Source of the DNA: an uncultured Bacteroidales bacterium
GTDB lineage: Bacteria > Bacteroidota > Bacteroidia > Bacteroidales > UBA932
Length of the DNA stretch: 38,813 nt
Assembly (NCBI GenBank): GCA_947630665.1
Contig: CANRID010000021.1
Location: 1-38,813, forward strand
Reading direction: 5' to 3'
Under the pieces are notes generated by a model. It was not told the origin of the DNA and did no database searches. It worked only from the letters and a program-made list of their open reading frames with translations. The position numbers and the translations under genes are program-made. Of this stretch, positions 1,610 to 28,613 are shown in pieces (the first letter of the stretch is position 1; each line of letters starts with the position of its first letter).

Positions 1610-2191
1610 TTAAATTTTGAAAATAGTGGAAACCACATATCCCGCAGCCTTATTTACAGTTGTCTCAAAAGAGGCGCGAAACGGAGAATGAAGAATCTGC
1701 CGCAACTCCTCTTTAGACGGCAGCCCTGTACCTAACATCTTGCAAAGGCTTTCCTTTTTGGTCCATAACACCGTAAACGCAACCTCCGGTTCGGAAGAAG
1801 CCGAAATGGCAGCGAATTCTTCTCTGCTGCATACATATTCGGCCAGCTCGGCATCGAACGGACGAAGAGTCTCGATGTCGATCCCGATAGGACTTTCGCT
1901 AATCGCGCAAGCAATAGCCTTTTCACAATGGCTGAGGCTGAAGTATATTTGCGGGTAGTCCTTTAAAAAAGGTTTTCCGTATTCATTGAATATAAATTCC
2001 GGAGCCACATCGATTTGGTACTCGCAGTTTAACCCGTACTGAAGCAACCGGTATGACAAAACGCTCCGAATCCGGTCCTGCGCCCTCAAAAAGCCTTCTG
2101 CTGCCTTACGGCGCTGGTCAGACACTTTCGAGAGCTCCCTCCGATACATCTCGTCGGTGAAAGATTCCGGAGCATCTTGGATATAAACCAT
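1610..2191 (-). CDS. Sfp-type 4'-phosphopantetheinyl transferase
   Basis: A 193-residue cytoplasmic enzyme that moves the phosphopantetheine arm of CoA onto carrier-protein serines. Family motifs are in order: GKPFL near 72-76, FSLSHC at 84-89, the Mg-binding IGIDIE at 102-107, and WTKKES at 143-148 with its catalytic Glu. It is short compared with Sfp itself but normal for Bacteroidetes members. It is the last gene of the NRPS operon, 17 bases after the STAS gene, so its job is almost certainly to activate the three carrier domains of the NRPS. The only antisense ORF here is a shadow. Confidence 0.93.
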   Translation of the reverse strand: MVYIQDAPESFTDEMYRRELSKVSDQRRKAAEGFLRAQDRIRSVLSYRLLQYGLNCEYQIDVAPEFIFNEYGKPFLKDYPQIYFSLSHCEKAIACAISESPIGIDIETLRPFDAELAEYVCSREEFAAISASSEPEVAFTVLWTKKESLCKMLGTGLPSKEELRQILHSPFRASFETTVNKAAGYVVSTIFKI

Positions 2192-2208
2192 CTCGGCATA
2201 TTTCGTTT

Positions 2209-2523
2209 TTACCTGATATCGAACAATGCAGAGAATCCGGTCATCGAGAACACTTTTTTGATGTTGTCGCTGATATGTTCGATAGTAAGGGTGCTTCCGT
2301 TTGCTTTTGCACGTTTCAGGAGACTGAGGAATAGCCGCAACCCGCTCGATGATATATATTGCAAACCCGTGCAGTCAAGCACGATATTTTTTCCTTTGGA
2401 ATCCATCAACAATTGGAAATCCTTCTCTGTCTGAACAGCCGCTGCCGTATCGAGTTCTCCTTCAAGTACAGCAATCATTTTGTCGTTCTCTTCATTGATT
2501 GTCGTTTTCATGTTTTTATTCAT
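2209..2523 (-). CDS. STAS-domain anti-sigma-factor antagonist (RsbV/SpoIIAA-like)
   Basis: A 104-residue single STAS domain. The conserved loop is YISSSGLRLF (residues 56-65), where S59 aligns with the serine that RsbW/SpoIIAB kinases phosphorylate; the Asp usually before it is replaced by Ser. A beta strand (NIVLDCTGL) leads into the loop as expected. It starts 3 bases after the stop of the SpoIIE-type phosphatase gene, so the two are translationally close. In the family, the unphosphorylated form binds a HATPase-type kinase. Candidate partners in this same operon are the HATPase domains of the phosphatase and of the exporter. An alternative start at residue 5 (MKTTINEEN) is possible. Confidence 0.92.
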   Translation of the reverse strand: MNKNMKTTINEENDKMIAVLEGELDTAAAVQTEKDFQLLMDSKGKNIVLDCTGLQYISSSGLRLFLSLLKRAKANGSTLTIEHISDNIKKVFSMTGFSALFDIR

Positions 2524-2526
2524 TGA

Positions 2527-4740
2527 TTAGATTTTCGATTTCTTCCTTTTAATAAGCGTCAGGTGATTCCTGTCATCGCTTCGGACATACCGCACCTCAT
2601 CCATAATCCGGCGCACAAGAAAGATGCCGAGTCCGCCTATTTCGCGTTCATCCACATCCAGGCTCACATCGGCATCGGCAACGGCGGTCGGATCGAATGC
2701 CTTTCCGCTGTCGATAATCTCGAAGCGTATTTCCGCTTCATCAAAGCAGGCCTCAACAACAATTTCTGCCACTGTACCGGAAGGATAGGCATAATCGATC
2801 ACATTGGCCGTCGCTTCTTCCAAGGCGAGTTTCAAGTCCAATACCTCCGCATCATCAAAGCCCGCTTTTTCAGCGAAATGCACTACGAATCCGTTCAATC
2901 GCGGAATTTCTTCGAGACTGTTCTTCAACACTATTTTTTCGCCGTTTTCCGAGCAGCCCGTCCTTTTGCAACAGAATGCAAGCATGGTAAGATCATCGCT
3001 TTGCGGGGCAGTCTTGACAAACCTGTTCACTTCCCCGACCATATATTCAAGCAGTTCCGCCGGCAGCAAGCCATTGCCCTTTATCTTTTCTAACGTCCGG
3101 ATCATATTTTCCTCGCCGAATTCCGCATATTCCATATTTTTTGCCTCCGTCAGACCGTCTGTATATACGAACAATGTGCAGTCGGAAGGGAGCACCGCCC
3201 CCTGTCCCTGATACTTGAAGTCCGAATATACACCTAAAGGAAGGTTCGGTACGACATCGAGCCGTGAAACCTCTTTTCCTATCAAGACCGGAGCGCCATG
3301 CCCGGCATTGCAGTAGTCGAGTTTTCCGGAAATCAAATCGAGTACGCCCACGAACAACGTAACAAACATATTGGAGTCATTCATGTCCGACATCGACAAA
3401 TTCATATATTCCACCGTTTTCGCAGCGCCGGAGGCATACGTTGAGACGGAGCGGAACAGACTTCGCGTTACCGTCATCAGCAACGCGGCCGGAACGCCCT
3501 TCCCGCTCACATCGCCAATGCAGAAATATAGCCGATTGTCCTTGACATAATAGTCATACAAATCGCCGCCCACTTCCAGTGCCGGCACCAACAGGCCCTC
3601 GATTTCCAGCATTTCGCTGCTGCCTTTGAAGACTCCCCCTTTGGGCAGCATACCCATCTGTATGTTCCGGGCTATGGACAGCTCGCTGCCTATTCTTTCA
3701 CGCTCGACCGTAATCTTTTGCAACCTGCCTACATTCCGCACAAAACGGAAAACGATGAATCCCAAAATAACAATCCCGACAATACGAAGCCACAAAAAGC
3801 GTATCCTCATCTTTTCATATTCGCCAAAGACCTCATTTTCAGAGCTGACAACAGCAAGTGACCACCCCGTATTTCCCCCGATGGGCGAATAAAACACATA
3901 ATATTTGTCTCCCCGTGCATCGCTTACTGTCTCCATTCCGCTTTCTCCGGCAAGCATTCTGCGGTTGATGTCAAGGAGCAACGTGTCTTTCATCTCCGAT
4001 ACGACCTCTTCAAATGTGCTTCGCATGACTTTTCCTTTGTCGGGATAACTCATCAGCTGACCCGTACGCGACATCAGGATATGGTAGCTCGAAGGAGAAA
4101 CATATTGCATACTCAGAATATTGTCGAGCCAATCGAGCGAAACATCGGCATCGAGTACGGCCACCAACCTGCCCGAACTATCGTGCACAGGTTCGGAATA
4201 GGTAGTCAGCAGCATTCGCGCCCCGTCACTGTCCAAATAAGGGTTAGACCATCTGGCACGATCCGTCTCCACCGGTATTTCAAAAAACTCCATACCGGTA
4301 TAGTCATGCTCCGCCGATCCCAGCTGCATCGTTTCGATAGCGCCATTTTCTCGTCTGACAGCATAACTTTCAAACCAGTATCCTTTCGAGGAATAATAGT
4401 TCGGAATAAAAGAGAGGGAACTGCCGATGATATTGGAGTTTTGCTTTACAAGCCGGCGCGTAACGGCATAGCTCGAATCGGGATAGGCCAAAAGCCTTTC
4501 GGCATCCCACACATGATTTTCCACGGCTGTTTCTACCTGCTTCAAAATATTTTGAATGGCAAGGTCTTTGGCCCGAAGTTCACTTTCCGCCCTGAGTCGG
4601 AGATTTTTGGTAATCTCGTCATGAGAATACTTGTACTGAACGATGGCTATCAATTCAAGCAGCACGGCAGCCGTGATGATTAGCAAAACACCGCTGGTTC
4701 CAATGAGTCTCTTACCACGTTTTAGGGGATTGTATGCCAT
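2527..4740 (-). CDS. Membrane sensor SpoIIE-type PP2C phosphatase with C-terminal HATPase
   Basis: A 737-residue protein. Transmembrane segment 1 is at about 14-34, followed by an extracytoplasmic double-Cache-like sensor at about 40-305, then a second membrane segment at about 315-334 and a short signalling helix. The PP2C/SpoIIE domain (about 370-590) keeps its metal-binding acids in GGD (391-393), IGDVSGKG (D410), YTDG (D528) and SDD (581-583). An RsbW-like HATPase follows at about 605-735, with an N-box (EEATAN, 641-646), DSGKAFDP and GGLGI. Known relatives dephosphorylate STAS proteins, and the next gene is one. It lies 49 bases after the NRPS gene. The ligand is unknown. I infer that the sensor could read the exported product or envelope state. 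Confidence 0.93.
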   Translation of the reverse strand: MAYNPLKRGKRLIGTSGVLLIITAAVLLELIAIVQYKYSHDEITKNLRLRAESELRAKDLAIQNILKQVETAVENHVWDAERLLAYPDSSYAVTRRLVKQNSNIIGSSLSFIPNYYSSKGYWFESYAVRRENGAIETMQLGSAEHDYTGMEFFEIPVETDRARWSNPYLDSDGARMLLTTYSEPVHDSSGRLVAVLDADVSLDWLDNILSMQYVSPSSYHILMSRTGQLMSYPDKGKVMRSTFEEVVSEMKDTLLLDINRRMLAGESGMETVSDARGDKYYVFYSPIGGNTGWSLAVVSSENEVFGEYEKMRIRFLWLRIVGIVILGFIVFRFVRNVGRLQKITVERERIGSELSIARNIQMGMLPKGGVFKGSSEMLEIEGLLVPALEVGGDLYDYYVKDNRLYFCIGDVSGKGVPAALLMTVTRSLFRSVSTYASGAAKTVEYMNLSMSDMNDSNMFVTLFVGVLDLISGKLDYCNAGHGAPVLIGKEVSRLDVVPNLPLGVYSDFKYQGQGAVLPSDCTLFVYTDGLTEAKNMEYAEFGEENMIRTLEKIKGNGLLPAELLEYMVGEVNRFVKTAPQSDDLTMLAFCCKRTGCSENGEKIVLKNSLEEIPRLNGFVVHFAEKAGFDDAEVLDLKLALEEATANVIDYAYPSGTVAEIVVEACFDEAEIRFEIIDSGKAFDPTAVADADVSLDVDEREIGGLGIFLVRRIMDEVRYVRSDDRNHLTLIKRKKSKI

Positions 4741-4789
4741 TTGCGTCCGTTTTCTGTTTTCTGGTTTTGTTTTTCTGTTTTACATATCT

Positions 4790-7700
4790 TCATCTGTCGA
4801 AGAAGCCCAAACCGTTGATAGCCGTAAAGAACCGGTCGAGATAATCCCAGGACGTCGGAGACCAGCGATACCCCAACCTGTACAAAACCTGCATGGTGTA
4901 TGTATTCTGACGGGCCACATCGGCAGACTTTTGTCCTTTGGTCATATTCTGATAGGCGAGGAGACTTGAAAGCTGTTCCGCCTTTTTAGGATCTTCCTTC
5001 GCTTTGTCGAGCGCCTGCACAAATTCGTCGGCTTCCACAAAACGCACCCCTTCACCCACCACATGCAGCTCGCTGAGAACATCGCCGAGCAACATGGCAT
5101 GGTTGTTATAGGGATGGAACACAACACATTTGGGGGGCGTTGCAGTCAACCGGACAATGGCTTCGGCAACCTCGTCGATAGGAGAAAATTCCACCTGACT
5201 ATCGTGTGCATCATAAGGACAGCAACCAAGCATATTGTACACTTTCAGGCGTCCCATGAAAGAGTTGGTATTAAAATTAGCTTGAAACTCCCCGTCGGTA
5301 CTCCGTGCGGAAAGATTTCCCACCCGCATGATTTTAGCGTTCAGCCCACGGAGAGCGACCGCCTCCAACACAATTCGTTCGGCAATAAATTTGGAGTGAA
5401 TGTACTTGTTGCCCAAAAACTGCCCCATATAGAGTTTCTGCTCGTTAAATATCTCATCGGAAGCCGGAACGCCATTAACGCTCATGCCACGGGTGCTTGC
5501 CGTAGAAATCTGGATCATTCTGGCACCGGTCTGCAAACAGAAATCAACGCAATGACGGGTACCGCCTACATTGACATCCTCTATCTCGGTACCTTCTGAG
5601 AAATGTTTCACCACCGCAGCACAGTTGATGAGCGTATCCACCTCGATGGTAGGAGAAAGGACATCCGTAACATCGCCTGTCACAATGCGGAGACGACCGC
5701 CGAAAAGCGCTTCAAATGAATTTTCGAAGTAGTAGAACAGAAGCGTTTTCAAGCGGGAAGCGGCTTTTTCTTCATCTTTTCCGCGCACCAAACACCAGAT
5801 TTGTTCCGCATCCGAGTCAATGAGCCGGCGAAGGATATGAATGCCCAAATAGCCGGTCGCCCCGGTGAGAAGAACCCGACCGAGTTTCTGCAGCTCTCCG
5901 CAACGGAAAGCGTCGAGGGTGTTTTCCTTCAAAACAGCGTCGATAGCAGAGTAGTCATAATGAGCCACGTCATCATCCGTACCCTCCTTGTCTCCCGCAC
6001 CGAGAATGAAGTTTGCCAATTTGCGGGGCGTAGGGTGGGCAAAGACATCGCCATAAGCGACATTATAGCCTAACTTATCGGTTTCAATGATGATTCGGGT
6101 GGTCGCAAGCGACGTACCGCCCAACTCGTAGAAGTTGTCGGTAGCACCGACCTTTTCCAATTTAAGAATCTTCGCGAATATATCGGCGACAGCCTGTTCG
6201 GTAGCATTTGTCGGCGCCTCATACGTGCCGGACTGCACGAGTTCCGGTTCCGGCAACGACTTGACATCGGTTTTCCCGTTAGGTGTAAGCGGCATCTTAT
6301 CCATTTGGAGGTAAGCCGTCGGGACCATATATTTCGTGAGCGTCTTGCCGAGTTCGGCTTTAAGCGCGGAAATATCGATTTTTCTATCGGCGGTGAAATA
6401 GGCGCCCAAATGTTCTTCTCCCTTTATCCTGACAATTTTGACAACGACATTCCGGATGCCGTCGACAGCGGAAAGCGCGGCTTCCACCTCTCCTAACTCG
6501 ATACGCAAGCCGCGAAGCTTAATTTGGTTGTCGGTACGGCCCAGCACTTCTACATCGCCACCGGACGTCCAGCGGGCATAGTCGCCCGACTTATATACAC
6601 GAAGTCCTTTATAGTCGATAAACCGTTCGGCCGTCATTTCAGGAAGGTCGTTGTAGCCGGAGGCAACCCCCATGCCGCCGATATACAGTTCACCGACAAT
6701 ACCGGCCGGCAGCTCGTTCCCGTCTTTATCCGCAATATATTCCGTAACGTTGAGCAACGGACGACCGATATTCACCCGATTGGTACGGGTAAGCTCTTTG
6801 GCATTGGAGGAAACGGTTATTTCAGTCGGACCGTATGTATTGAAAATCCGTGCATCGGGAGCCGCTTCACGCAACTTGTCGAGAAGACCGTCGGCATATT
6901 TCTCTCCGCCGCACATCAATACCTTACACCTGCGCAAAGCTTTGACAAATGCGGGAAGTTCCATAAACTGCAACATTCTCGAAGGCGTGGTATTGAAAGC
7001 ATCGGTTTCTGTCTTTTCCAACAGTGCAGCCAAATGAATCGGGTTGGTCGTATGGTCTTCATCGGCGAACACGAGCGTCAGACCGTTGAACAATGCAGCG
7101 CCTATCTCTTTGAGCGACATATCGAACGAAACCGTAGTTATCGAGAGCAAGGTTTTCGCAGTAGTTGCCAATGCGTGAATATGGCTGTTGGCCGGATGAT
7201 CGGTCAGGTAGTTGGCAATGCTTTCATGTCGCAGCATGACGCCTTTCGGCTTGCCGGTAGAACCCGACGTATAAATCAGATATGCCAGATCCTTAGGCGT
7301 GATATGGATTTCGGGCTTTGTAACAGCCCCGTCAAGAAGCATTTCCACATCGATGGCATTCGGGAAATCGGGAACACGGTCGGCAGTGGTAATGATATAG
7401 GCGGCATGACTGTCGTTCAAAATATGTTGGATCCTCTCGACAGGATATTCCGGATCGCAAGGGATATAGGCAGAGCCGGCTTTCATCACGCCGAACATCG
7501 CCATGATCATTCTGGAAGTGCGGGGGAGCATCAGCGCAACACGGCTCTGCTCTTTCACGCCTCTATTTATGAGGCCATTAGCGATTCTGTTGGCATAGGC
7601 GTCGAGTTCGGAATATGAAAACTCCCCGTCACAAGCAATAAGCGCCTTTCTATCGGGTTGCGCGAGGGCCTGATGTTCAAGCCCTTCATGGAAGTAGCCG

Positions 7701-10700
7701 AATTTAGGTGCTGCGGTCGCAACAGCATGAAATTCATCGAGTTCCTTTTCACGCTCTTTGTCGATAAAATCTACATTCCGAATCTTCCCTTCCGGATTGG
7801 AAAGCATCTTCCCGACAGCAATCACGATACTTCTTGCCAATCCCTCCATCAGGGTGCCGCTATAAAGCGCATCATTATAGAAAACGACTACGCTGGGTTT
7901 GCCGTCAGCCGACTCGATGTGTATGGAGAGTTTGAATTTGGCCGAGTTCATTTCCAACTCTTCTATCCCTTTCATCTCCGGAAAATCGGTTCCGGTTATG
8001 ACGCCGAGCTGGTATTCGTAAACAATCTGAGGTTTGAAGCCGAAATCGGCGGCAATTTTCGCAAACGGGTATTTTTCATGTTCGATGACACCCTGAAAAA
8101 CGGCAGCGCTCTTACCGATAAATTCGGCCGATGTTTCTTCTCCGATCTTTATTCCAAGCGGAAGGGTATTGACAAACATTCCGAAGGTATCGCTCGTGCG
8201 GACATCGCTCCGCCCGCTGCTGATAGTGGAAAGATAGACATTGGAATCATTGATGTAGCGCGAGACCGTGTAAAATACAGCCGCCAGCATTATCGCGGCC
8301 GGAGTCGTCGCGTGATTGCGGGCATATTGCCCGACCTGAGCCATGTCGAACGGAGAATGGACGCTCGTGAGTTTGCCCTCAGCCTCTTTCCCTTTGAGAT
8401 CGGCGGAAATTTCGCTGGCGCTCTCCATCTCCGCCAGCATATCGGCATAGAAACGGCGGTTTTCCTCAAAAAGCGCCGAGTTCTCAAAACTCTTTTCATC
8501 TGCCACATACGCCGAATAAGGATATGTCTCTACGGCAGGATTCGTTCCGCGCAAGGCATCCCGCAGCTGGTTGATAAAAATATCGAAGGAGGTGCCGTCA
8601 AAAACCAGATGATGGAAATCGGTAAAAAGGCACGTGTCATTTTCACATTCGACCACAGCCAGACGATACAGGGGACCCGAAGAGAGACGGAACGGTCGGA
8701 CGAACTCGTTTTTGAATGCTTCAAACTCCCGAAGCGAGAGCCGGCGGCGCTCCACAACCACCTCCGTATCTCCATTATGCGACTGCATTACGCCGTTTTC
8801 GGTATTTTCGAATTTCGTGCAAAGGACCGGATGCGCCTTGACAATCGCCACGACAGCCTCCTGAAGTCTGTCGCCGGAGACGCTCCCGTCGAATCTGATT
8901 ATGGCGGGTATATTGTACAAGACATCGGTAGGGTGTTTCATACACTCGAAATAGACTCCCGTCTGCGGGAAAGAAAGCGGTACCGCTTTTTCCCCTTCTA
9001 CGGATACGGAAGGTTCAGGATCCGATGATGTTTTTTCCCGATGGTCCGGATTCATCCACCGCGCCAAAAGAATATTTTCTATTGTTTCGACGGAGCCTCC
9101 GTTAAGGAGCGTTTTCGATGGAATTTCCTCTCCAAAACGTTTATACAACTGCGAGGAAAGCTTTATGCTCAAAATAGAGGTAAGCCCTATGCCCGAGAAA
9201 GGCGTGGAAATGCCGAAGGCCTCCACTCCCGTCACCTTCGCTGCCATATCATGAAGTTCCTGCTCCAACGCATTCAAAGGCCGGTTATTGTCCGATTCCG
9301 TCTGTTCGGCTTTGAACTCAGGGGCCGGAAGCGCCCGACGATTGACTTTCTGGTTCTGGTTGAGCGGTATGCGCTCTATCTGCATAATCACAGCGGGAAC
9401 CATATAAGGAGGCTTTCTTTCCCGGATAAAATCCGCCACGGCCGAGGTGTCGAGCGACTGGTCGCTTACGATGTAAGCCGCTATGAATTTTCCTCCCGAC
9501 GGGTGATCGAAAGCCACTACGGTGGCATCCTTGATGCCCGGAAAATCCCGGACGACCTGTTCCACCTCGCTCAGTTCTATTCTGAACCCGCGAATCTTCA
9601 CCTGTCCGTCGATACGGCCGACAAAGTCGATATTGCCGTCCTGCCGATAGCGCACGACATCGCCCGACCGGTACAGCGGCGTATAATCTCCCTTTTCAAA
9701 AGGATTTTCCATAAACACTTCGGATGTCTTGTCGGGACGGTTCAGATAGCCGTCCGCCACATGAGGCCCGGCAATCCATAATTCTCCGATTGCCCCCACA
9801 GGCACGCGTTTTCCCTCCGGACTCACTATATAGCCTTTCAAGTTATCCAGCACTTTGCCTATCGGGACAACCGTCTCATCTTTTTGCAATTCATAGATTG
9901 TAGAGATAATCGAACATTCGGTAGGTCCATAGGCATTGAATGTCCGGTATGTGTCCGGTATCGGGAAAGAGATGAGTTTCTCACCGCCCATAGAGAGATA
10001 TTTCAACGATGTTTCGCGGATATCGGTTGCGAACTGCCGTCCCACCTGGGTAGTCATGAACTGGTGCGTTACTTTGTTCGCGACCATGTAGGCATTGAGC
10101 TGCTCCATATCGAGGCGTATATCTTCCGGAATGATGCAGACGGAAGCTCCCCGCGCAAGCGCCGGATACATATCCATCATATTGGCGTCGAAGCCATAAG
10201 AAGCATAAGCGCCCACGCAATCGCCGGGTTTCAGGTCGTAAAACCGGATATACCAGTCGATGAAACATACCAAATTGGAATGCGTCAGCCTGACCCCTTT
10301 CGGCACTCCGGTGGAACCGCTCGTATAGAGCAAAGTGAAAAGGTCTTCCGGTTTTCCCGTGTCATTCTGTCGGGAGCAAGATTGGAGTTTCTCAATATCC
10401 TTTATATACAATACGTCCCCTTCGTATTCTCCCGCCAGAGTACGCAATTCCTCCGTCGTAACGAGCAGTTTGGAGCCTGCATCTTTAATCATGAAATTGA
10501 GACGTTCCTCGGGATAGGAGCTGTCGAGAGGCTGGTATGCACAACCGGCTTTCAGTACGCCCAATGATGCTATAACCATCCATTCGCTGCGGGGTATCAT
10601 GATGCTGACCACATCGCCGGCGCCAAGCCCCCGTCTGTTCAATTCCGCCGCCATTGCATCCGTCAACAGGGCCGTCTCTTTATAGGAATATTTTTTATCC

Positions 10701-13700
10701 CGATAAATGACGGCTATATTATCGGGATATGCGGCAGCAGCGGCATCGAAAAGGGTTACGACCGTTTGCGTTTTGTCATAGGAGACTTCCGTGCCGTTGA
10801 AACGGTCGAGCCTCTCGGTTTGGGATTCGTCCGTCAATTCGATCCCGGACATCAGATCGGCTTCGAGCATCGACTTCAAGACTGCGGCATAGCTCCGCGC
10901 CATCTCGTCTATAAACGCTTCCGAATATCTGTTGAGCATGTATTCGGCATGGAGAGTCAATTCCCCGTCGTGAAGGAATACCTGAAAATCGAGCGGGGAG
11001 CCGGTGGCATTTCTTTCTAAGGAAACCGGCTGCACCGGTTTTCCGCAAACACGGTCGACGGCAAGATAATCGCCTTGATAGGCAAACAGTACATCGCTGT
11101 TGATACCCGTTGCGGCAGCCAGTTCGGCAAAAGAATAAATGTCGTTGCTCATGACATCCAACATCTGCTGCTTGACGCTCCGGAGATAGTCGGAGACCGG
11201 AGTGTCCGCATGCCAGCTGCAATAGACCGGCAATGTTTTGACCATCATATCCATGGTCCGTGCCACACGCGTACTGTTCCGGCCGTTGTAAATCGTGGCG
11301 AACAGCGATTCCGACATATTCGCATAGGCGCCTAAAAGGCGGCCGAACGCTGCAACAGCCAAAATATTGGGCGTAATGTCCAATCGCCGGCAGAAGCGGT
11401 CCAGTATCTCGCTCCCGATACCTGTTTTCCGGTCGCAGGAGGCGAAACGGATTTGCTCGTCATGCGTGTCCGGCATCGGAACGCTATTCACCTCCAAACT
11501 TCCGAATGTATTCATATACCACTCTTTCGCTTCCCGATAGGCATCGGTATCGCGCATGGCCATTTCCTCCATGGCGACATTAAAGCCGGTATATTCTTCG
11601 GGCTGGAGATTCCCGCCGTCATAAGCCCTGTCGACATCGGCAGAAAAAATGATCATCGATGTTCCGTCATAAATGATATGATGGAAATCGGTAAAATAAT
11701 ACAGGTTTTTCTCCGTGCGGATGATGCGGATTCGGAAAAGCCGGTCGGCGAGGAGGTCGAAAGGGAGGATAAGATGCTGTTTCATGGCCTCGAACGCCGT
11801 TTCAGTCATCCGTTCGATTTCCTGATTATAGGGCTTGTCATCGGCTATCATTACCGGATTCCCGTCTGCATCTTCCCGAATATGCACCTTTACGAATGCG
11901 TGCGCCTCCACAGCCTGCTCCACGGCCCGCGCCAACTTTTCTTCATCGAGGGAAGGGTCGAGTTTCAGCAGTATCGGATTATTGTAGGCCGCTTCGCCGC
12001 GCCGTGCCATACTCTCTGCAAAAATACCCATTTGCGTTTGCGACAGAGGTACAGGTTCTGTCGGGACGGCGTTTATAACCGTTCCGGCCGCATTCCGGCA
12101 CAACTCGGCAATTTTTCTCGGGGTACGCCCCTTATAAATAAGTTTGGAGGTAAGGGCCAGCCCTTTACTCATTTGCTGGAGAGACATCACCTTGATGCTG
12201 TCGCCGCCGAGCAGGAAGAAATCATCGTCAATGCCCGCTTTTTCCATTTTGAAGACTTTGGCAAAAGCATCGCAAAGGATTTTTTCCGTTTCGTCGGAAG
12301 GAGCCACGTATGTCGATTGCAGTTCCGAAGTTTCGGGCGGCAGGAGTATTTTCCGGTTTACTTTCCCGTTCGGCAAAAGCGAGAAACGCTCTACTTTCAA
12401 AATATGCAGCGGCACCATATAGGAAGGCAGCTTTTTGATCAATATATCGCGTATAGTCTGCGGAGCGATATCGGAATCGGGCGCCGCCGTATAGTAACCG
12501 CAGATATATTGACTGCCGTTTTTTGCCTTGAATCCCTTGACAATCGCCTCTTTCACCCCGTCGATACGCTTCATGGCCGATTCCACCTCACCCGGTTCCA
12601 CCCGCTGGCCATTTATCTTTACCATCCAGTCTTTGCGGTTGATGTACAACAGATTTCCGTCGGGAAGCTCGCGCATGATGTCCCCTGTATGCAGCCACCC
12701 GTCGCGAAGAAGCTGCGCCGTGCGTTCCGGATCCTTATAATATTCTTTGGCGAAAGTTCCTTTCAATATGAGCTCCCCTTCCTCGCCTTCGGGTACCGGT
12801 TTGCCCTCTTCATCGATCAGACGGTACTCTATGGAGGATTTCGGATCTATCCGTCCGATGGGAGTCGAGTCATACGGCCGTTCTACCAAAAACGGGCAGA
12901 ATCCGCCTACCACTTCACTCATTCCGTAAGAGTTATACAGTTTGTACCCCTCGCGGCTCGTCTGCATGGAAAGTTTCTCGCTTCCGGCAAAAACATATTT
13001 GAGCGATGTCGAATGGTTGTGGAAATTCGGAAGCACCGAAGGACTGATAAAGGTATGCGTAATGCCATGGTCTGCCACATAATCTGCCATCTTCTGCACA
13101 TCGAAGCGCACCTCGTCATCATACAAATGAAGCTCTCCGCCACCTATCAACACATTGAAATGAATGCTTATGCCGGCTATGAAATAGAACGGAGCTGCAG
13201 ACCCCCAGACCGAATCGGGACGGAAAGATTTCCTCATACCGTATTTACATGCAAGTTCAAGGCTTTCAAAATCATGGAGGATCCCTTTCGGCTCGCCTGT
13301 CGAACCGCTTGTATATATCAGCAGGGCATTACTCTCCATGTCGAGCGGCTCGTGCGCGCCGAACGCATCGGGAGATGCCGTTAATCGGGATAACATTTCG
13401 CTGTCTATGACCAAAGGTGCCTCGCAATGTTTCTTGATATGTTCCACCCGCTCGGAAGGGAATGTCATGCCCATCGGCACAATGGCATGACCCGCCATCC
13501 AAACCCCCATTTCAGCGGCAAGATACTCCATCGAAGCAGGGAGTAAAATCGGCAGGAACGAATGAGGCGGGAGATTCATTCCCTTCAGGCCTGTAGCGAT
13601 GCGCCTTGTCAGACAACCGAGTTCACCATAACTTGTGCTTCGCCGTCCTCCATAGTCGATCACGGCCGTTTTGCCGGTATTTTTTTCAAATGCTTCCCAT

Positions 13701-13726
13701 AGAAGCTGCAAATATTCGTTTGTCAT
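4790..13726 (-). CDS. Non-ribosomal peptide synthetase, A-T-C-A-T-C-A-T-R
   Basis: A 2978-residue assembly line. A1 spans about 1-460, T1 about 470-545 (GGDS, S510), C1 about 555-960 (HHIIYDG, H682/H683/D687), A2 about 975-1470, T2 about 1480-1555 (atypical GLTS, S1517), C2 about 1580-1985 (HHLVFDG, D1710), A3 about 2005-2495, T3 about 2505-2575 (GGTS, S2539) and a terminal NAD(P)H reductase from about 2600 (GATGYLG 2622-2628; YIHSK, Y2775/K2779). There is no thioesterase, so release is reductive. Hand-read pocket residues are IASFVASGG for A1, DAMFSGAII for A2 and DMKNMGTVS for A3. A1 has Ile where amino-acid-activating domains have Asp, and YGMSE in place of YGPTE, so it probably loads a carboxylic acid. 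Predicted product: an N-acyl dipeptide aldehyde or alcohol. Substrates are not assigned. The gene starts 9 bases after the exporter. Confidence 0.96.
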   Translation of the reverse strand: MTNEYLQLLWEAFEKNTGKTAVIDYGGRRSTSYGELGCLTRRIATGLKGMNLPPHSFLPILLPASMEYLAAEMGVWMAGHAIVPMGMTFPSERVEHIKKHCEAPLVIDSEMLSRLTASPDAFGAHEPLDMESNALLIYTSGSTGEPKGILHDFESLELACKYGMRKSFRPDSVWGSAAPFYFIAGISIHFNVLIGGGELHLYDDEVRFDVQKMADYVADHGITHTFISPSVLPNFHNHSTSLKYVFAGSEKLSMQTSREGYKLYNSYGMSEVVGGFCPFLVERPYDSTPIGRIDPKSSIEYRLIDEEGKPVPEGEEGELILKGTFAKEYYKDPERTAQLLRDGWLHTGDIMRELPDGNLLYINRKDWMVKINGQRVEPGEVESAMKRIDGVKEAIVKGFKAKNGSQYICGYYTAAPDSDIAPQTIRDILIKKLPSYMVPLHILKVERFSLLPNGKVNRKILLPPETSELQSTYVAPSDETEKILCDAFAKVFKMEKAGIDDDFFLLGGDSIKVMSLQQMSKGLALTSKLIYKGRTPRKIAELCRNAAGTVINAVPTEPVPLSQTQMGIFAESMARRGEAAYNNPILLKLDPSLDEEKLARAVEQAVEAHAFVKVHIREDADGNPVMIADDKPYNQEIERMTETAFEAMKQHLILPFDLLADRLFRIRIIRTEKNLYYFTDFHHIIYDGTSMIIFSADVDRAYDGGNLQPEEYTGFNVAMEEMAMRDTDAYREAKEWYMNTFGSLEVNSVPMPDTHDEQIRFASCDRKTGIGSEILDRFCRRLDITPNILAVAAFGRLLGAYANMSESLFATIYNGRNSTRVARTMDMMVKTLPVYCSWHADTPVSDYLRSVKQQMLDVMSNDIYSFAELAAATGINSDVLFAYQGDYLAVDRVCGKPVQPVSLERNATGSPLDFQVFLHDGELTLHAEYMLNRYSEAFIDEMARSYAAVLKSMLEADLMSGIELTDESQTERLDRFNGTEVSYDKTQTVVTLFDAAAAAYPDNIAVIYRDKKYSYKETALLTDAMAAELNRRGLGAGDVVSIMIPRSEWMVIASLGVLKAGCAYQPLDSSYPEERLNFMIKDAGSKLLVTTEELRTLAGEYEGDVLYIKDIEKLQSCSRQNDTGKPEDLFTLLYTSGSTGVPKGVRLTHSNLVCFIDWYIRFYDLKPGDCVGAYASYGFDANMMDMYPALARGASVCIIPEDIRLDMEQLNAYMVANKVTHQFMTTQVGRQFATDIRETSLKYLSMGGEKLISFPIPDTYRTFNAYGPTECSIISTIYELQKDETVVPIGKVLDNLKGYIVSPEGKRVPVGAIGELWIAGPHVADGYLNRPDKTSEVFMENPFEKGDYTPLYRSGDVVRYRQDGNIDFVGRIDGQVKIRGFRIELSEVEQVVRDFPGIKDATVVAFDHPSGGKFIAAYIVSDQSLDTSAVADFIRERKPPYMVPAVIMQIERIPLNQNQKVNRRALPAPEFKAEQTESDNNRPLNALEQELHDMAAKVTGVEAFGISTPFSGIGLTSILSIKLSSQLYKRFGEEIPSKTLLNGGSVETIENILLARWMNPDHREKTSSDPEPSVSVEGEKAVPLSFPQTGVYFECMKHPTDVLYNIPAIIRFDGSVSGDRLQEAVVAIVKAHPVLCTKFENTENGVMQSHNGDTEVVVERRRLSLREFEAFKNEFVRPFRLSSGPLYRLAVVECENDTCLFTDFHHLVFDGTSFDIFINQLRDALRGTNPAVETYPYSAYVADEKSFENSALFEENRRFYADMLAEMESASEISADLKGKEAEGKLTSVHSPFDMAQVGQYARNHATTPAAIMLAAVFYTVSRYINDSNVYLSTISSGRSDVRTSDTFGMFVNTLPLGIKIGEETSAEFIGKSAAVFQGVIEHEKYPFAKIAADFGFKPQIVYEYQLGVITGTDFPEMKGIEELEMNSAKFKLSIHIESADGKPSVVVFYNDALYSGTLMEGLARSIVIAVGKMLSNPEGKIRNVDFIDKEREKELDEFHAVATAAPKFGYFHEGLEHQALAQPDRKALIACDGEFSYSELDAYANRIANGLINRGVKEQSRVALMLPRTSRMIMAMFGVMKAGSAYIPCDPEYPVERIQHILNDSHAAYIITTADRVPDFPNAIDVEMLLDGAVTKPEIHITPKDLAYLIYTSGSTGKPKGVMLRHESIANYLTDHPANSHIHALATTAKTLLSITTVSFDMSLKEIGAALFNGLTLVFADEDHTTNPIHLAALLEKTETDAFNTTPSRMLQFMELPAFVKALRRCKVLMCGGEKYADGLLDKLREAAPDARIFNTYGPTEITVSSNAKELTRTNRVNIGRPLLNVTEYIADKDGNELPAGIVGELYIGGMGVASGYNDLPEMTAERFIDYKGLRVYKSGDYARWTSGGDVEVLGRTDNQIKLRGLRIELGEVEAALSAVDGIRNVVVKIVRIKGEEHLGAYFTADRKIDISALKAELGKTLTKYMVPTAYLQMDKMPLTPNGKTDVKSLPEPELVQSGTYEAPTNATEQAVADIFAKILKLEKVGATDNFYELGGTSLATTRIIIETDKLGYNVAYGDVFAHPTPRKLANFILGAGDKEGTDDDVAHYDYSAIDAVLKENTLDAFRCGELQKLGRVLLTGATGYLGIHILRRLIDSDAEQIWCLVRGKDEEKAASRLKTLLFYYFENSFEALFGGRLRIVTGDVTDVLSPTIEVDTLINCAAVVKHFSEGTEIEDVNVGGTRHCVDFCLQTGARMIQISTASTRGMSVNGVPASDEIFNEQKLYMGQFLGNKYIHSKFIAERIVLEAVALRGLNAKIMRVGNLSARSTDGEFQANFNTNSFMGRLKVYNMLGCCPYDAHDSQVEFSPIDEVAEAIVRLTATPPKCVVFHPYNNHAMLLGDVLSELHVVGEGVRFVEADEFVQALDKAKEDPKKAEQLSSLLAYQNMTKGQKSADVARQNTYTMQVLYRLGYRWSPTSWDYLDRFFTAINGLGFFDR

Positions 13727-13735
13727 ACAAAAAAA

Positions 13736-15514
13736 CTATTTATCCGTCTGAAAAGTAATTTGAACCATGTTCTGATTGTACATATATTTATAGCTGATAG
13801 CAGCACCGAGTCTGTTCACCAATTTCAATCCGAGATGCTCGTCATCAAGAGAAAACAAAATTCCGGAGTCCTGTTTTAATATCGGATTGAACGGCCGGCC
13901 GTCGTCTTTTATAAGGATATTGACCTTTCCGTCATGGCACCGGATATGAAGGTCGAAAAAATGTTTTTCGGGATTTTTCTCCACAGCATAGTTCAGCAGA
14001 TTATACATCAATTCTTCACACGCAAGCCTGACCTCGTAGGTCGTGGTCGCATCGATATGCTGCCGCCGGAGAAAATCGGCGATAGTACAGGTGGCATTTT
14101 CTATATCCTCCCTTTCCAACTTCACGGAAATATTGAGCGACTCGACCTTGTCTGTCTCCGGTATCAAGGTCAACATCCGGATGTTCCTGTTCCGGACATG
14201 AACCGCCCCTGTAAACACAAGGACTCCCGCGAAAAGGCAGAAAGAGGATAATGGGAACCCCCACCAAAGTGTCTTGGGACTGATAAAAGAGAATCCCCAT
14301 ACAAATGCCGCCATAAGCAGGAGTTGCGATACGCTTAGGAACAGGCTGAGAGAATAGCGGCCTAAAATCTGGTAATTGGAGCGTAACAGCGCCACCACAG
14401 AATACGGTATAATCATCAGACTGTAAATGCGGAGCGCCGCCGGCAGAAACTCGGAACCGTTGCCGTTTACACTGCCGAAAAGACGTCCGAACATATCGGG
14501 AGCTGAAAATATGAACAACATCACTACCGCCATCGCCGCGCATTGATAAAGCAAACATCTGTTATTGAGAATGGACAATCCTTGCATATCCTGCTCTCCG
14601 ACCAAAACTCCTCCGATGGAATATATGCTCGAACTTATTCCGGAAAGCGCCATCTGCATAATCAGGAATAGTTGAAGGCACACCGACCAGCAATACAAGC
14701 CCTCTGTGCCCTGCGCATGAAGCACGATGGCATTTATCGCCGTAATGCTAACCGCAAGGAGAAACGTGTTTATACTCATGGCAAAGCCTTGCGATACGCT
14801 TTGACCGACATACTTGAAGAGACGTTTCCTATCCAATCGCCATCGCAGCGAATTATATGGAGAACGGAAATGGGTACAGCAAATCAAAAGCGCCACAATA
14901 TAATTGAGTCCTGTAGCATAAGCCGATCCTCTGATGCCGAGAGAGCAATATTTCACAAAAACGATATCGAACGCCAAATTCAGCACACTCCCGACAATGA
15001 CCGCTATCATTACGATACGCGGATTCCCGTCGGTTTTCACGAAATTCTCCAGAACGCCGGCCAACATCAGAAACGGGACAAACAGACTCATGCTTCGGAG
15101 ATAAGGCAGGGCATACCTGTAAATGTCTTCATTTCCTTGCGTCAATATCTCTACGATGAAAGGGCTGAAAAAGAACATCAAGATCGCAAGCGCCACAGAA
15201 GTAACGCCCGATGAAATCAAGCAGGAGGTGAACATACCGTTGGCCGTTTCTTCATCGCAACGTCCGATTGCCTTTGCCGCCACGATGCTCGCTCCTATGC
15301 CGAAAAGAATCATCAAGCAGGTAAAAAGGGTCAACACAGGCATCACGACGTTTATGGCAGATATGGCGTCCGTCCCTATCAGATTGCTCACCACGACGGC
15401 ATCGGTGGTCGTTGCCAGCTGATTCGATACAGCAGCCAATATCGATGCCCACATGAATGTGCGGAGCGCACGGGTTATAAGGTAAGGATTTCGTTGTCCG
15501 ATAGTTGTTCTCAT
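13736..15514 (-). CDS. MATE-family exporter fused to an RsbW-like HATPase domain
   Basis: A 592-residue protein. Residues 1 to about 440 form a full MATE/multidrug-type transporter of about 12 hydrophobic segments, an ion-driven antiporter fold. After a short cytoplasmic linker, residues about 460-590 form a second, soluble domain with the GHKL ATP-binding hallmarks: N-box EELMYN (500-505), DDGRPFNP (537-544) and EHLGLKLV (559-566). This resembles serine kinases of the RsbW/SpoIIAB type. Ordinary MATE proteins end near residue 450, so the extra domain is the oddity. It is the first gene of the operon, 9 bases before the NRPS, so it probably exports the peptide. I infer that the HATPase binds the operon's STAS protein and gates transport or acts as its kinase. 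Confidence 0.93.
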   Translation of the reverse strand: MRTTIGQRNPYLITRALRTFMWASILAAVSNQLATTTDAVVVSNLIGTDAISAINVVMPVLTLFTCLMILFGIGASIVAAKAIGRCDEETANGMFTSCLISSGVTSVALAILMFFFSPFIVEILTQGNEDIYRYALPYLRSMSLFVPFLMLAGVLENFVKTDGNPRIVMIAVIVGSVLNLAFDIVFVKYCSLGIRGSAYATGLNYIVALLICCTHFRSPYNSLRWRLDRKRLFKYVGQSVSQGFAMSINTFLLAVSITAINAIVLHAQGTEGLYCWSVCLQLFLIMQMALSGISSSIYSIGGVLVGEQDMQGLSILNNRCLLYQCAAMAVVMLFIFSAPDMFGRLFGSVNGNGSEFLPAALRIYSLMIIPYSVVALLRSNYQILGRYSLSLFLSVSQLLLMAAFVWGFSFISPKTLWWGFPLSSFCLFAGVLVFTGAVHVRNRNIRMLTLIPETDKVESLNISVKLEREDIENATCTIADFLRRQHIDATTTYEVRLACEELMYNLLNYAVEKNPEKHFFDLHIRCHDGKVNILIKDDGRPFNPILKQDSGILFSLDDEHLGLKLVNRLGAAISYKYMYNQNMVQITFQTDK

Positions 15515-15551
15515 TTGATCAAGAACTTTTCATCCATCCGCTTTCTGTGTT

Positions 15552-15559
15552 CAAAGATA
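15552..15559 (-). promoter_or_regulatory. Likely promoter (-7 element) of the NRPS operon
   Basis: The minus strand reads TATCTTTG, an exact TAnnTTTG, 37 bases before the MATE start codon. The predicted transcript start near 15545 leaves a leader of about 30 bases. The -33 position is weak: I see no TTTG at 18-21 bases. This is the only good element upstream of the five-gene operon, and it lies in the divergent spacer shared with the DUF3089 gene. Confidence 0.55.
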
Positions 15560-23467: not shown

Positions 23468-26050
23468 ATGAACCCGATCATTATAGAAAAAGCCCTGAAA
23501 GGGGAAATCCTATCTAAAGCCAATCTGCTTGAAATCGTCCGGGAAACCGGAGAACCGGGAAATACGGAAAATATAGAAAATATAGAAAAAATAAAAGCAA
23601 GGGAAAAAGTCGAAGAAATATATCGTCTGGCTCACCGGATCACCCGGTCTTTTATGGGGAACCGGTTCGACAGCTGCTCCATCGTAAATGCCAAATCCGG
23701 CAACTGTCCGGAAGATTGTAAATGGTGCGCCCAATCGGTGCATAACCAGACGACAGTGGGAATCTACCCCCTGATCTCTGTCGGGACCGCCGTAGAAAAC
23801 GCCCGGAAAAACTGCGATTACGGAATCCGGCGTTTTTCTTTAGTAACCAGCGGAAGAAAAGTCTCCAAAAAAGAAATCGGGGAAATTTGCGAAATTGTCA
23901 GGGCCATCCGCCGGCAAACAAATGCCGTTCCGTGTGTTTCCCTGGGGCTGGCGGACGAAGAAGATATGCAGAAACTATATGAAGCGGGCGTCACCCGGTA
24001 CCATTGCAATATAGAAAGCTCTCCGGCCTATTTCAAAAGCCTTTGCACCACACATACGACAGAAGACAAGCTCAAAACCCTGCAGGCGGCACGCAAAGCG
24101 GGTATGTCCTTATGCTCCGGAGGAATTATCGGAATGGGAGAAACCTGGGAGGACAGGATAGATATGGCTCTGTTTTTACGGGAACATGAAATATTTTCTA
24201 TCCCGATAAATGTACTCCACCCTATCAAGGGCACGCCGCTGGAAAATAACCGGCCGTTGACCGAAGATGAATATTTGCTGACGGTGGCTCTTTTCCGGAT
24301 CATAAACCCCCGCGCTTTTCTCCGATTTTCGGGAGGGAGGGCCCTGCTGAGCAAGGAGATCCAGGAAAAAGCGCTTTACACAGGCATCAATGCGGCTATT
24401 ATGGGAGACATGCTCACGACCACAGGAGCCGGAGTGCAGGAAGACATCCGTTTATTTACCCGGGCCGGATACGATTTTCATCGGAAGGATAACGAAGTCA
24501 GGAATACGGATGCCGGGGCCGGCGCATGTAATAGAACAAGCGGCAAGCCAAATATACCGTCCGGTCCATTGCCCGATGAACTGGAAAAACATATCTGGCA
24601 CCCTTATTCCTCTACGGAAAATCCTGTCCCGATTTTTTTTGTGGAAAGCGCCGAAGGAGTACGGATTAAAATCAGAAATCCGGAAGCAGGCTCCGCTCCG
24701 GTTCCCGGAATGCAGGCCGATGAAGGATACAGAAAAATCCGTAATCTTCCCCATAACAATGAAAATGAGAACCGGGACACATCTCCGGCATTTCTGGAAC
24801 TTATAGACGGCATGTCAAGCTGGTGGGCTGCCATTCATGGCTATAACCATCCCGTATTGAACCGGGCTATCTGGGAGCAAACAGATAAAATGAGCCATAT
24901 CATGTTCGGAGGATTCACGCACGCACCCGCCAGGGAACTTACCCGCCTCTTACTGGGAATCCTGCCCCCTCCCCTGACCAAAATATTTTATTCCGATTCG
25001 GGAAGCGTTTCGGTAGAAGTAGCCATGAAAATGGCCATCCAATATTGGGCGTCCCGGAATCAGCCCCAAAAAACCAAATTCGCTACCGTCCGCAGCGGGT
25101 ACCACGGAGATACCTGGCACGCCATGAGCGTCTGCGATCCCGTGACCGGCATGCACAGTCTGTTCGGGCCATCGCTTCCCATTCATTTTTTCGCTCCGGC
25201 TCCCGGCACGACATGGGGTTGGCATGTCCAAGGAAAATTCGCGCACACCAATCGTCCGATGAATCTTCCCGGGGAGTACCGGCAAGATCATCCCGACGAG
25301 AACATGCAGAAAAGCCTTTTGGATCGGGATGTGGAAGCGTTGGAGAAGATTTTCAGAGAACACGGGCAGGAAATCGCCGCCTTTATCCTGGAGCCGGTTG
25401 TCCAGGGAGCAGGAGGCATGCGTTTTTATTCGCCCCAATATCTGGTAAAAGCCAGGGAATTATGCGACCGGTACCGAATCCTGCTTATTTTCGATGAAAT
25501 CGCTACCGGGTTCGGCAGAACCGGCAAAATGTTCGCATGGGAACATGCGGGAATCGTTCCGGACATTATGACTATCGGGAAAGGCCTTACAGGCGGATAT
25601 ATGACCCTAGCAGCCACTTTATGTACGGATGAAGTAGCCGGAGCCATTTGCCGGGCGAAACCCGGTGTATTCATGCACGGTCCTACTTTCATGGGAAATC
25701 CGCTCGCCTGCGCCGTAGCCTGCGCATCAGTCAGGCTCCTGATTGAAAACGACTGGCAAAAGAAAATAAAACACATAGAAAAACTCCTTATCGAAGGACT
25801 CTCTCCGGCCCGGGAACTACCCGGTGTAGCCCAAGTACGGGTGCTGGGTGCCATAGGAGTCATAGAGTTGGACGAGCCGGCAGACCTGCGCGTCATCCAG
25901 CCCATACTGGTACGACACGGCATCTGGCTCCGGCCTTTCGGCAAACTGGTTTATACCATGCCCCCATACGTTATAAACGACACGGATCTGAAAACGCTGT
26001 GTCGGGAAACGGTGGAGGTGCTTAAAGAACTTGCCCTCCGGAAACAATAA
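23468..26050 (+). CDS. bioAB: Bifunctional biotin synthase / DAPA aminotransferase (BioB-BioA)
   Basis: An 860-residue fusion. Residues 1 to about 338 are BioB, the radical-SAM enzyme that inserts sulfur into dethiobiotin: the SAM-cluster Cys motif is C80-x3-C84-x2-C87, with YHCNIES, GGIIGMGE and INVLHPIKGTPLE. Residues about 368-860 are BioA, the PLP enzyme making 7,8-diaminopelargonate from KAPA with SAM as amino donor: WHPYSS, GMSSWWAAIHGYNHP, YHGDTWHAMS, FDEIATGFGRTG and the PLP lysine K705 in TIGKGLTGG. An Asn-rich insert (about 400-440) interrupts BioA. Auxiliary-cluster ligands are C156, C216 and R286, but the E. coli Cys97 position is Ser124, which suggests the anaerobe-type BioB. BioB-BioA fusions are known in Bacteroides. 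bioD follows. Confidence 0.96.
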   Translation: MNPIIIEKALKGEILSKANLLEIVRETGEPGNTENIENIEKIKAREKVEEIYRLAHRITRSFMGNRFDSCSIVNAKSGNCPEDCKWCAQSVHNQTTVGIYPLISVGTAVENARKNCDYGIRRFSLVTSGRKVSKKEIGEICEIVRAIRRQTNAVPCVSLGLADEEDMQKLYEAGVTRYHCNIESSPAYFKSLCTTHTTEDKLKTLQAARKAGMSLCSGGIIGMGETWEDRIDMALFLREHEIFSIPINVLHPIKGTPLENNRPLTEDEYLLTVALFRIINPRAFLRFSGGRALLSKEIQEKALYTGINAAIMGDMLTTTGAGVQEDIRLFTRAGYDFHRKDNEVRNTDAGAGACNRTSGKPNIPSGPLPDELEKHIWHPYSSTENPVPIFFVESAEGVRIKIRNPEAGSAPVPGMQADEGYRKIRNLPHNNENENRDTSPAFLELIDGMSSWWAAIHGYNHPVLNRAIWEQTDKMSHIMFGGFTHAPARELTRLLLGILPPPLTKIFYSDSGSVSVEVAMKMAIQYWASRNQPQKTKFATVRSGYHGDTWHAMSVCDPVTGMHSLFGPSLPIHFFAPAPGTTWGWHVQGKFAHTNRPMNLPGEYRQDHPDENMQKSLLDRDVEALEKIFREHGQEIAAFILEPVVQGAGGMRFYSPQYLVKARELCDRYRILLIFDEIATGFGRTGKMFAWEHAGIVPDIMTIGKGLTGGYMTLAATLCTDEVAGAICRAKPGVFMHGPTFMGNPLACAVACASVRLLIENDWQKKIKHIEKLLIEGLSPARELPGVAQVRVLGAIGVIELDEPADLRVIQPILVRHGIWLRPFGKLVYTMPPYVINDTDLKTLCRETVEVLKELALRKQ

Positions 26051-26111
26051 AACATAACATCCGTTCCTAATACGAAAAGGAACTATCAGAAAGACAAAAA
26101 AACGCAAACGA

Positions 26112-28582: not shown

Positions 28583-28613
28583 CAAAGGTAGCATTTATCA
28601 TTTATCTATCAAA
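28583..28613 (-). promoter_or_regulatory. Bacteroidetes promoter of the GNAT-ogt operon
   Basis: On the minus strand TTTG (28613-28610) and TACCTTTG (28590-28583) are separated by 19 bases, a full consensus match. The transcript would start near 28576, about 60 bases before the ATG at 28516. It overlaps the 3' end of the HAD-TcdA gene, so GNAT-ogt can be expressed separately from it. Confidence 0.75.

Follow-up and report, generated by a model that had tools for sequence, protein, structure and literature searches.

A partner switch encoded with a MATE-HATPase exporter in a Bacteroidales peptide-synthetase operon may control peptide export directly

Gene content of the locus

We analysed a 38,813-nucleotide contig from an uncultured Bacteroidales bacterium (the window; contig 21 of a 2.24-Mb genome that is 93% complete), on which five genes lie in a row on the minus strand (1610-15514). 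Pfam matches and coordinates identify their products, in order, as a MATE exporter fused to a HATPase domain, a non-ribosomal peptide synthetase (NRPS), a sensor phosphatase, a STAS antagonist and a 4'-phosphopantetheinyl transferase (PPTase). Because the gaps between the genes are only 9, 49, 3 and 17 bp in that order, the five probably form one operon. An earlier reading of this DNA (the original prediction) had placed the first four in a single operon, and its coordinates and domain calls agree with Pfam; the PPTase, which follows the STAS gene across the last of these gaps, was absent from its gene list. The arrangement suggests that the cell may control export of the peptide directly, not through gene expression. 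The features are listed below, other genomes and loci being given as G and L numbers.

13736..15514, minus strand: MATE exporter with C-terminal RsbW-type HATPase (MATE-H; P0002), 592 aa; Pfam MatE and HATPase_c_2
13754..14110, minus strand: HATPase_c_2 domain of the exporter; 52.2 bits, over the cut-off (genome search with PF13581)
4790..13726, minus strand: NRPS (P0003), 2978 aa, with three adenylation (A), two condensation (C) and three thiolation (T) domains and a terminal thioester reductase (R); domain matches
2527..4740, minus strand: sensor phosphatase (P0001) with a PDC/dCache part, a SpoIIE PP2C domain and a HATPase_c_2 domain (2548-2922); Pfam
2209..2523, minus strand: STAS antagonist (P0004), 104 aa, with candidate phospho-acceptor S59 (codon 2347-2349); Pfam STAS
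1610..2191, minus strand: PPTase (P0005); Pfam ACPS
15552..15559, minus strand: TATCTTTG, a match to TAnnTTTG, 45 nt before the exporter start codon; motif scan
1625..15525, no strand assigned: block with 89.3% DNA identity to the operon of G658 (L160, L042); DNA comparison

The exporter matches Pfam MatE at residues 24-184 (93.8 bits against a cut-off of 24.9) and HATPase_c_2 at residues 469-587 (48 bits against 27.4), while the NCBIfam model matE scores 126.4 bits, under its cut-off of 147.4. Its best solved relatives include BH2163 and PF0708, the latter of which we take to be PfMATE. Residue D38, by its role presumably the conserved Asp of MATE helix 1, is conserved in at least 90% of 49 aligned rows, and among the aligned exporters of the MATE-H type MatE was matched in 49/49 and HATPase_c_2 in 47/49. 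A hydropathy plot gave overlapping peaks from which no clean helix count could be read.

The tail of the exporter contains N-box residues E501 and N505, G1 residues D537 and G539, and G2 residue G562, which we take to be the catalytic and ATP-site positions. Its C-terminal motif is YKYMYNQN, at residue 575, where the family form reads YKYMYGQN. Searched against the PDB, a profile of 14 exporter-type HATPase domains (A6) matched SpoIIAB and RsbW best (E about 3e-4). It superseded a four-row profile (A2), which included the degenerate L036 and matched RsbW in the PDB only at chance level (E 0.32). Judged by sequence, the exporter tail is an RsbW-type HATPase with predicted kinase-site residues.

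The sensor phosphatase combines an MCP-like PDC/Cache part with a SpoIIE domain (144 bits) and a HATPase_c_2 domain (90 bits). The SpoIIE motifs GGDLYD, GDVSGKG, YTDG and SDD, which we take to be those of the phosphatase metal site, are all present, as are the motifs of the protein's own HATPase. The best PDB match of the phosphatase is Rv1364c, and NCBIfam gives matches under the cut-off to RsbW, Pseudomonas RssB and SiaA; an identification of its second PDB relative as HsbR was dropped, NCBIfam pointing to Pseudomonas RssB. The STAS protein (Pfam STAS, 59 bits) has TM1442, RsbV and SpoIIAA among its relatives and a weak NCBIfam match to MlaB, far under the cut-off. Its S59, already singled out by the original prediction as a phosphorylatable serine, is invariant across 11 aligned STAS proteins and lines up with its counterpart in TM1442, presumably the phospho-serine position. 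The three hallmarks of a partner switch can thus all be read from the operon: a STAS protein with the conserved Ser, a SpoIIE domain with metal-site motifs and HATPase_c_2 domains with Glu, Asn and G boxes.

Related genes also occur in other settings. Genes for an NMT1/THI5-like periplasmic binding protein, each immediately preceding one for a SpoIIE sensor phosphatase, occur at L039 (12591-13538), L040 (8250-9221), L123 (2-877), L125 (8770-9714), L129 (3010-4035) and L152 (3058-3999), identified by Pfam for L123 and by inspection of the sequence for the others. STAS genes stand beside a RelA/SpoT-type synthetase, often with an HD protein, in other Bacteroidales (L123 2-5262, L117, L124, L125, L126, L129; RelA_SpoT and HD_4 by Pfam in L123, by inspection in the other five), an arrangement that may connect partner switching with (p)ppGpp.

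Inventory of switch parts and the promoter

A STAS profile found one gene in the genome, that of the operon, and a SpoIIE-HATPase profile found only the phosphatase gene and the HATPase of the exporter. With PF13581, two domains scored over the cut-off, the phosphatase's and the exporter's, and one weaker match in a 1204-aa frame fell under it. With these two over the cut-off, the exporter tail is therefore the sole RsbW-like domain, besides the phosphatase's own, available to this STAS protein. Five relatives (G395-G399) carry the identical closed set in the gene order of the window: each has a single STAS match, with one SpoIIE-HATPase and one MATE-HATPase over the cut-off, so that in all six genomes no STAS other than the operon's was matched. 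The PF13581 inventory covered 17 further genomes, G395-G399 among them. Of the rest, G402 holds the same set spread over different contigs, and the Fibrobacter genome G431 combines a single free HATPase with a single MATE-HATPase; G024, G749 and G034 have no MATE-HATPase over the cut-off, and G401, G404, G407, G414, G417, G427 and G430 have three or more HATPases each.

The textbook output of RsbU/RsbV/RsbW partner switches is release of a sigma factor, and by analogy the STAS protein would free a sigma factor from an anti-sigma factor and thereby control transcription of the operon. The module does resemble RsbU/RsbV/RsbW and SpoIIE/SpoIIAA/SpoIIAB in its SpoIIE-type PP2C, its STAS protein with a conserved Ser and its HATPase_c_2 kinase-like domain, but here the two HATPases belong to a MATE exporter and to the phosphatase, and the operon lacks a sigma factor. 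This absence, claimed in the original prediction, held in a Pfam and domain search of the operon's five proteins, the sigma genes of the genome lying outside that search. Nor did the 93%-complete genome or G395-G399 contain a further HATPase_c_2 domain over the cut-off. Upstream of the exporter, TATCTTTG matches TAnnTTTG, the consensus of the Bacteroidota -7 element of the primary-sigma (housekeeping) type, and therefore no alternative sigma factor need be invoked; no good -33 element was seen near it by eye. Of 56 upstream stretches, each 150 nt long, 24 contain the element, against a mean of 3.3 and a maximum of 9 in 500 single-base shuffles; within the close NRPS-linked group described below it is present in 8 of the 15 stretches, the window's included (the other seven are without a match). 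Conventional sigma-factor control is the least probable of the explanations that we weighed.

Recurrence of the gene set

One scan of genome contigs with the pattern YKYMYGQN yielded 68 loci; exporters that lack this motif are therefore unsampled in it. Most of the named assemblies that carry related exporters are Bacteroidales from the guts of herbivores. For alignment, the window and loci added from further genomes were combined, and duplicates (L049, L067 and L107, equal to L034, L035 and L036) and proteins shorter than 540 aa were removed. The resulting 61 proteins comprise 15 of a close NRPS group, 6 other NRPS-linked fusions, 35 without an NRPS in view, 1 from Fibrobacter and 4 divergent ones, the view being flanks of up to 10 kb, with several contigs cut (that of L048 only 92 bp past the gene).

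In the close group, STAS lies on the same contig in 13 of the 15 fusion-NRPS loci, in three gene orders. The window and L042-L046 share the order MATE-H, NRPS, SpoIIE-H, STAS and PPTase, with a 450-aa ligase-like gene after the NRPS in four of them; STAS lies upstream of MATE-H and NRPS in L047, L050, L052, L053, L054 and L056; and L055 shows a third order. The contigs of L053 and L056 begin where the phosphatase would lie, and L047 holds only the end of that gene. L058 breaks off, and a 9.6-kb contig in the same genome carries SpoIIE-H, STAS and PPTase. The PPTase is also next after STAS in L110-L114. Recurrence of the set in rearranged order, together with HATPase_c_2 in 47/49 exporters, therefore indicates more than chance. 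All five ATP-site residues are kept in 15/15 close-group fusions, and each of them in 34 or 35 of the 35 fusions without an NRPS in view; among the six other NRPS-linked fusions, the G1 Asp is lost in three (L094, L101, L102).

Window positions 1625-15525 are 89.3% identical over 13.9 kb to the operon of G658, a genome assigned to another family, and the match stops near the ends of the operon, 11 bp before the exporter start codon. Since the matching record L042 is a metagenome-assembled genome, the shared block may be a binning error. Taken at face value, recurrence of the operon as a block in another family would suit the view that the signalling genes merely travel with the cluster, without a function in it. 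This view is very improbable, given that the set is kept through three gene orders and that the operon's STAS is the sole STAS match in six genomes.

The fusion is not common across the wider group. A scan of 296 genomes of the phylum (E 1e-60; at most 4 candidates scored per genome) returned the window's own copy only, among the matches listed, and a scan of 393 genomes of the order (E 1e-75; at most 3 per genome) returned, among the matches listed, the own genome, G658, G086 (with a changed tail) and G749 (with a plain MATE); the fusion is therefore rare in an even draw. In a scan of viral contigs with the exporter, no relative was confirmed.

The exporter and the switch also occur together in Fibrobacter. 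A motif-keeping fusion is found in 2 of 80 genomes (G431, G815), a count that leaves out a fusion-length match on contig 1 of G813, as does that of changed tails. In both, HATPase, SpoIIE and STAS genes lie divergently adjacent to the fusion, with one STAS match per genome and no NRPS there. Ten further Fibrobacter MATEs (L184-L193) have tails without at least the N-box Asn, and neither STAS nor SpoIIE lies in the stretches examined around them (only 4.4 kb for L185). STAS occurs in 61 of the 80 genomes. The idea that STAS is missing where the tail is eroded was rejected, since STAS is present in all 10 changed-tail genomes (G788, G801, G823, G828, G842, G852, G857, G860, G861, G863) and only adjacency differs.

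Two loci show altered exporter genes. At L040 (2862-13840; G034), a SpoIIE-HATPase-STAS-SpoIIE array adjoins three genes for MATEs, of which two end in eroded HATPase-like tails, with no NRPS in the 16 kb examined. At L103 (10169-10426), the fusion gene, which lies between STAS and NRPS, is cut to 86 aa that join the start of the MATE to the end of the HATPase, the short frame reflecting either a deletion or a collapsed assembly.

A model for control of the exporter

We propose that the MATE exporter of the peptide product carries its RsbW-like HATPase as a tail that would face the cytosol. According to this model, a periplasmic ligand at the Cache domain would set the balance of a bifunctional phosphatase/kinase, with SpoIIE and HATPase in one protein, and thereby how far the STAS protein is phosphorylated at S59. 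In its unphosphorylated form, STAS would dock on the exporter's HATPase and change transport, in whichever direction; the same HATPase could then phosphorylate STAS, releasing it and resetting the switch. We give this explanation, in which product export is controlled through STAS on the exporter's HATPase, a probability of about 0.4, and favour it over the alternatives by elimination. In its favour we count the closed inventory of the six genomes, STAS on the contig in 13/15 close-group loci, the ATP-site residues kept throughout that group, the separate STAS clade of MATE-H clusters described below, the divergent pairing in Fibrobacter, the block shared between two families, and the precedents of HsbA-HsbD, SiaC-SiaD and MlaB for targets other than sigma factors. 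The broader claim is that a sigma-free three-protein switch directly gates a secondary-active non-ribosomal peptide exporter via a fused RsbW-type domain, so that a periplasmic signal controls release without new transcription, and that the pairing extends to Fibrobacter without an NRPS; we put this forward tentatively, with the odds somewhat against it.

Evidence against the model and alternative explanations

Several observations weigh against exporter control. At five clusters (L039, L137, L115/L157, L148/L155 and L147/L156, the STAS of L147 being placed by the genome-wide STAS search), SpoIIE, STAS and an NRPS with reductase lie beside a MATE without HATPase. Two genomes with such clusters, G024 and G749, hold no MATE-HATPase over the cut-off; the second strong HATPase of G749 is another SpoIIE-HATPase adjoining a STAS. 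The switch therefore does not need an exporter HATPase everywhere, and by these gene contents it has, or had, another use in NRPS clusters. L057 has a fusion and an NRPS with no STAS on its 61-kb contig, the seven STAS matches of its genome all lying on contigs of other lengths. Among the 35 fusions without an NRPS in view, 30 show neither STAS nor SpoIIE nearby. Finally, STAS is common anyway: at E<=1e-8, 48 out of 100 relatives have a match, as do 212 of the 393 genomes from the order. It was found somewhere in 43/43 searched genomes that hold fusion loci (E<=1e-6), in a search that covered 44 of the 68 loci.

Consequently, the original prediction that the switch acts on the transporter stands in part: no other HATPase_c_2 domain exceeds the cut-off in the genome and five relatives, whereas plain-MATE clusters carry the same switch. 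The adjacency score that it had proposed is likewise divided, with STAS on the contig in 13/15 of the close group and the 30 isolated fusions on the other side, and a fusion widespread without STAS or SpoIIE neighbours, which it had named as a refutation, is partly what these 30 amount to. Of the remaining five, L073 has SpoIIE and STAS, and L074, L089, L090 and L095 have a SpoIIE; among the six other NRPS-linked fusions, both are in view only at L101.

Trees of MATE and STAS proteins bear on the ancestry of the two cluster types. Both are quick trees with long branches (their support values carry an asterisk); L037 and L040 were left out of the MATE tree and STAS frames of at least 140 aa out of the STAS tree. 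In the MATE tree, the five plain cluster MATEs group together (100*) and, with the fusions, make up a wider clade (99*) separate from the 24 ordinary MATEs; the divergent L038 is placed with the latter. The STAS tree (46 rows) counts against exporter control as well, with a clade of 18 (99*) in which eight STAS proteins from MATE-H clusters mix with eight from NRPS clusters without MATE-H and with two of other origin. Outside it, the window's STAS shares a separate clade (97*) with those of L110-L114, and all of these come from MATE-H clusters.

This shared ancestry of the plain MATEs and the fusions, and the intermixing of STAS proteins from both cluster types, is what one would expect if the switch regulated something common to many Bacteroidales NRPS clusters, the fused HATPase only localizing or buffering STAS or being the relic of an ancestral partner. 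Changed or eroded tails in other MATEs (L036, L037, L038, L040 and Fibrobacter L184-L193), and the G1 Asp lost in three NRPS-linked fusions, point the same way. A relic, on the other hand, would not show the conservation seen at the ATP site, whose residues are kept in all 15 close-group members and, taken singly, in 34 or 35 of the 35 fusions without an NRPS in view. We consider this explanation distinctly unlikely.

Alternatively, the exporter's HATPase could be the input: a kinase tethered to the membrane and reporting the state of transport or the ATP level to STAS, which would act on the NRPS, the reductase, the PPTase or elsewhere. The tail has the Glu and Asn that one would expect in an active kinase, and a shared target other than the exporter would explain why clusters exist with and without a HATPase on the MATE. 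STAS-type proteins can, moreover, bind targets that are not RsbW-like, as described in the cited sections on HsbD (PMC5085249) and MlaF (PMC7367683). However, exporter and switch are adjacent without an NRPS in two Fibrobacter genomes, and the phosphatase already has a HATPase of its own. An input role for the exporter's domain is rather unlikely.

Relation to known systems

The established role of partner switches is mainly the regulation of sigma factors and of a few enzymes. HsbR reportedly joins a phosphatase and an RsbW-like kinase in one protein, and an anti-sigma factor is said to be among the known outputs of HsbR-HsbA-HsbD. This system and SypE-SypA differ from the operon in their receiver sensor, where here there is a Cache domain, and in their outputs, given in the source sections as a diguanylate cyclase or biofilm formation (the anti-sigma factor again by report), where here there is a transporter-fused HATPase. 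As the cited portions describe them, SypE-SypA comprises a phosphatase and RsbW-like kinase in one protein, one STAS protein and a non-sigma output (PMC12826045), and HsbA, a STAS-type antagonist, acts on the non-sigma target HsbD (PMC5085249). In SiaABC-SiaD, a PP2C phosphatase and a kinase control the antagonist-like SiaC, which acts on the enzyme SiaD; the output is c-di-GMP synthesis and no transporter is named in the portion cited (PMC7647112), whereas here an exporter lies in the operon.

A precedent for a STAS protein on a transporter is MlaB of MlaFEDB, which binds the transporter ATPase and is required by the complex; binding is weakened by a phosphomimetic at the STAS site, and the cited sections state that MlaB phosphorylation is without experimental evidence (PMC7367683). 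MlaB binds an ABC ATPase, whereas the partner proposed here is a secondary transporter with an RsbW-type domain. No ABC gene is found among the five operon proteins, and the ABC ATPase that marks an MlaFEDB-type STAS-regulated transporter is thus absent. Indigoidine is an NRPS product. An RsbW-like domain takes part in its control through TciK/TciR (REC-RsbW), in a host without an RsbV homologue, according to the section cited (PMC12826045). The likeness lies in an RsbW-like domain in the control of such a compound; the difference, as far as that section goes, is that there is no transporter fusion there.

By titles and abstract openings, and among the matches listed, the open-licence literature describes neither a MATE-HATPase fusion with STAS and SpoIIE nor such a switch in an NRPS operon. 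If the model is right, the partner-switch module would gain a new output, the exporter, and the release of natural products by gut and rumen bacteria would have a post-translational point of control. The operon also offers a small and nearly closed test system: the one STAS protein, the one phosphatase and the two HATPases that were found in the genome are all encoded in it.

The NRPS, its product and neighbouring genes

The domains of the NRPS are probably ordered A-T-C-A-T-C-A-T-R. For the NRPS, reductase included, the closest NCBIfam model is the aureusimine synthetase AusA, and the PPTase is AusB-like, both under the cut-off. The likeness to AusA/AusB ends there, as this NRPS has three adenylation domains and its operon adds an exporter and a switch. 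The product would be a small peptide aldehyde, or its reduced or cyclized form.

A protein of about 450 aa is encoded between NRPS and phosphatase in L113 (1717-3069), L111, L112 and L114, and before MATE-H in L119 (8648-10000). It has no Pfam match (tested on L113) and by look resembles the phenylacetyl-CoA-ligase type. Stand-alone Condensation-domain matches of 426-433 aa lie near fusions without an NRPS in view at L060 (5856-7133; Pfam) and at L062, L065, L077, L078, L096 and L097 (phmmer).

Elsewhere in the window, HepT-like and nucleotidyltransferase genes, a pair of the toxin-antitoxin type, directly follow the PPTase (902-1583). An 860-aa frame combines radical SAM/BATS (biotin synthase-like) and class-III aminotransferase domains and is followed by an AAA_26 gene, dethiobiotin synthetase-like (23468-26852). 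A 542-aa frame at 28598-30226 combines HAD hydrolase and ThiF domains.

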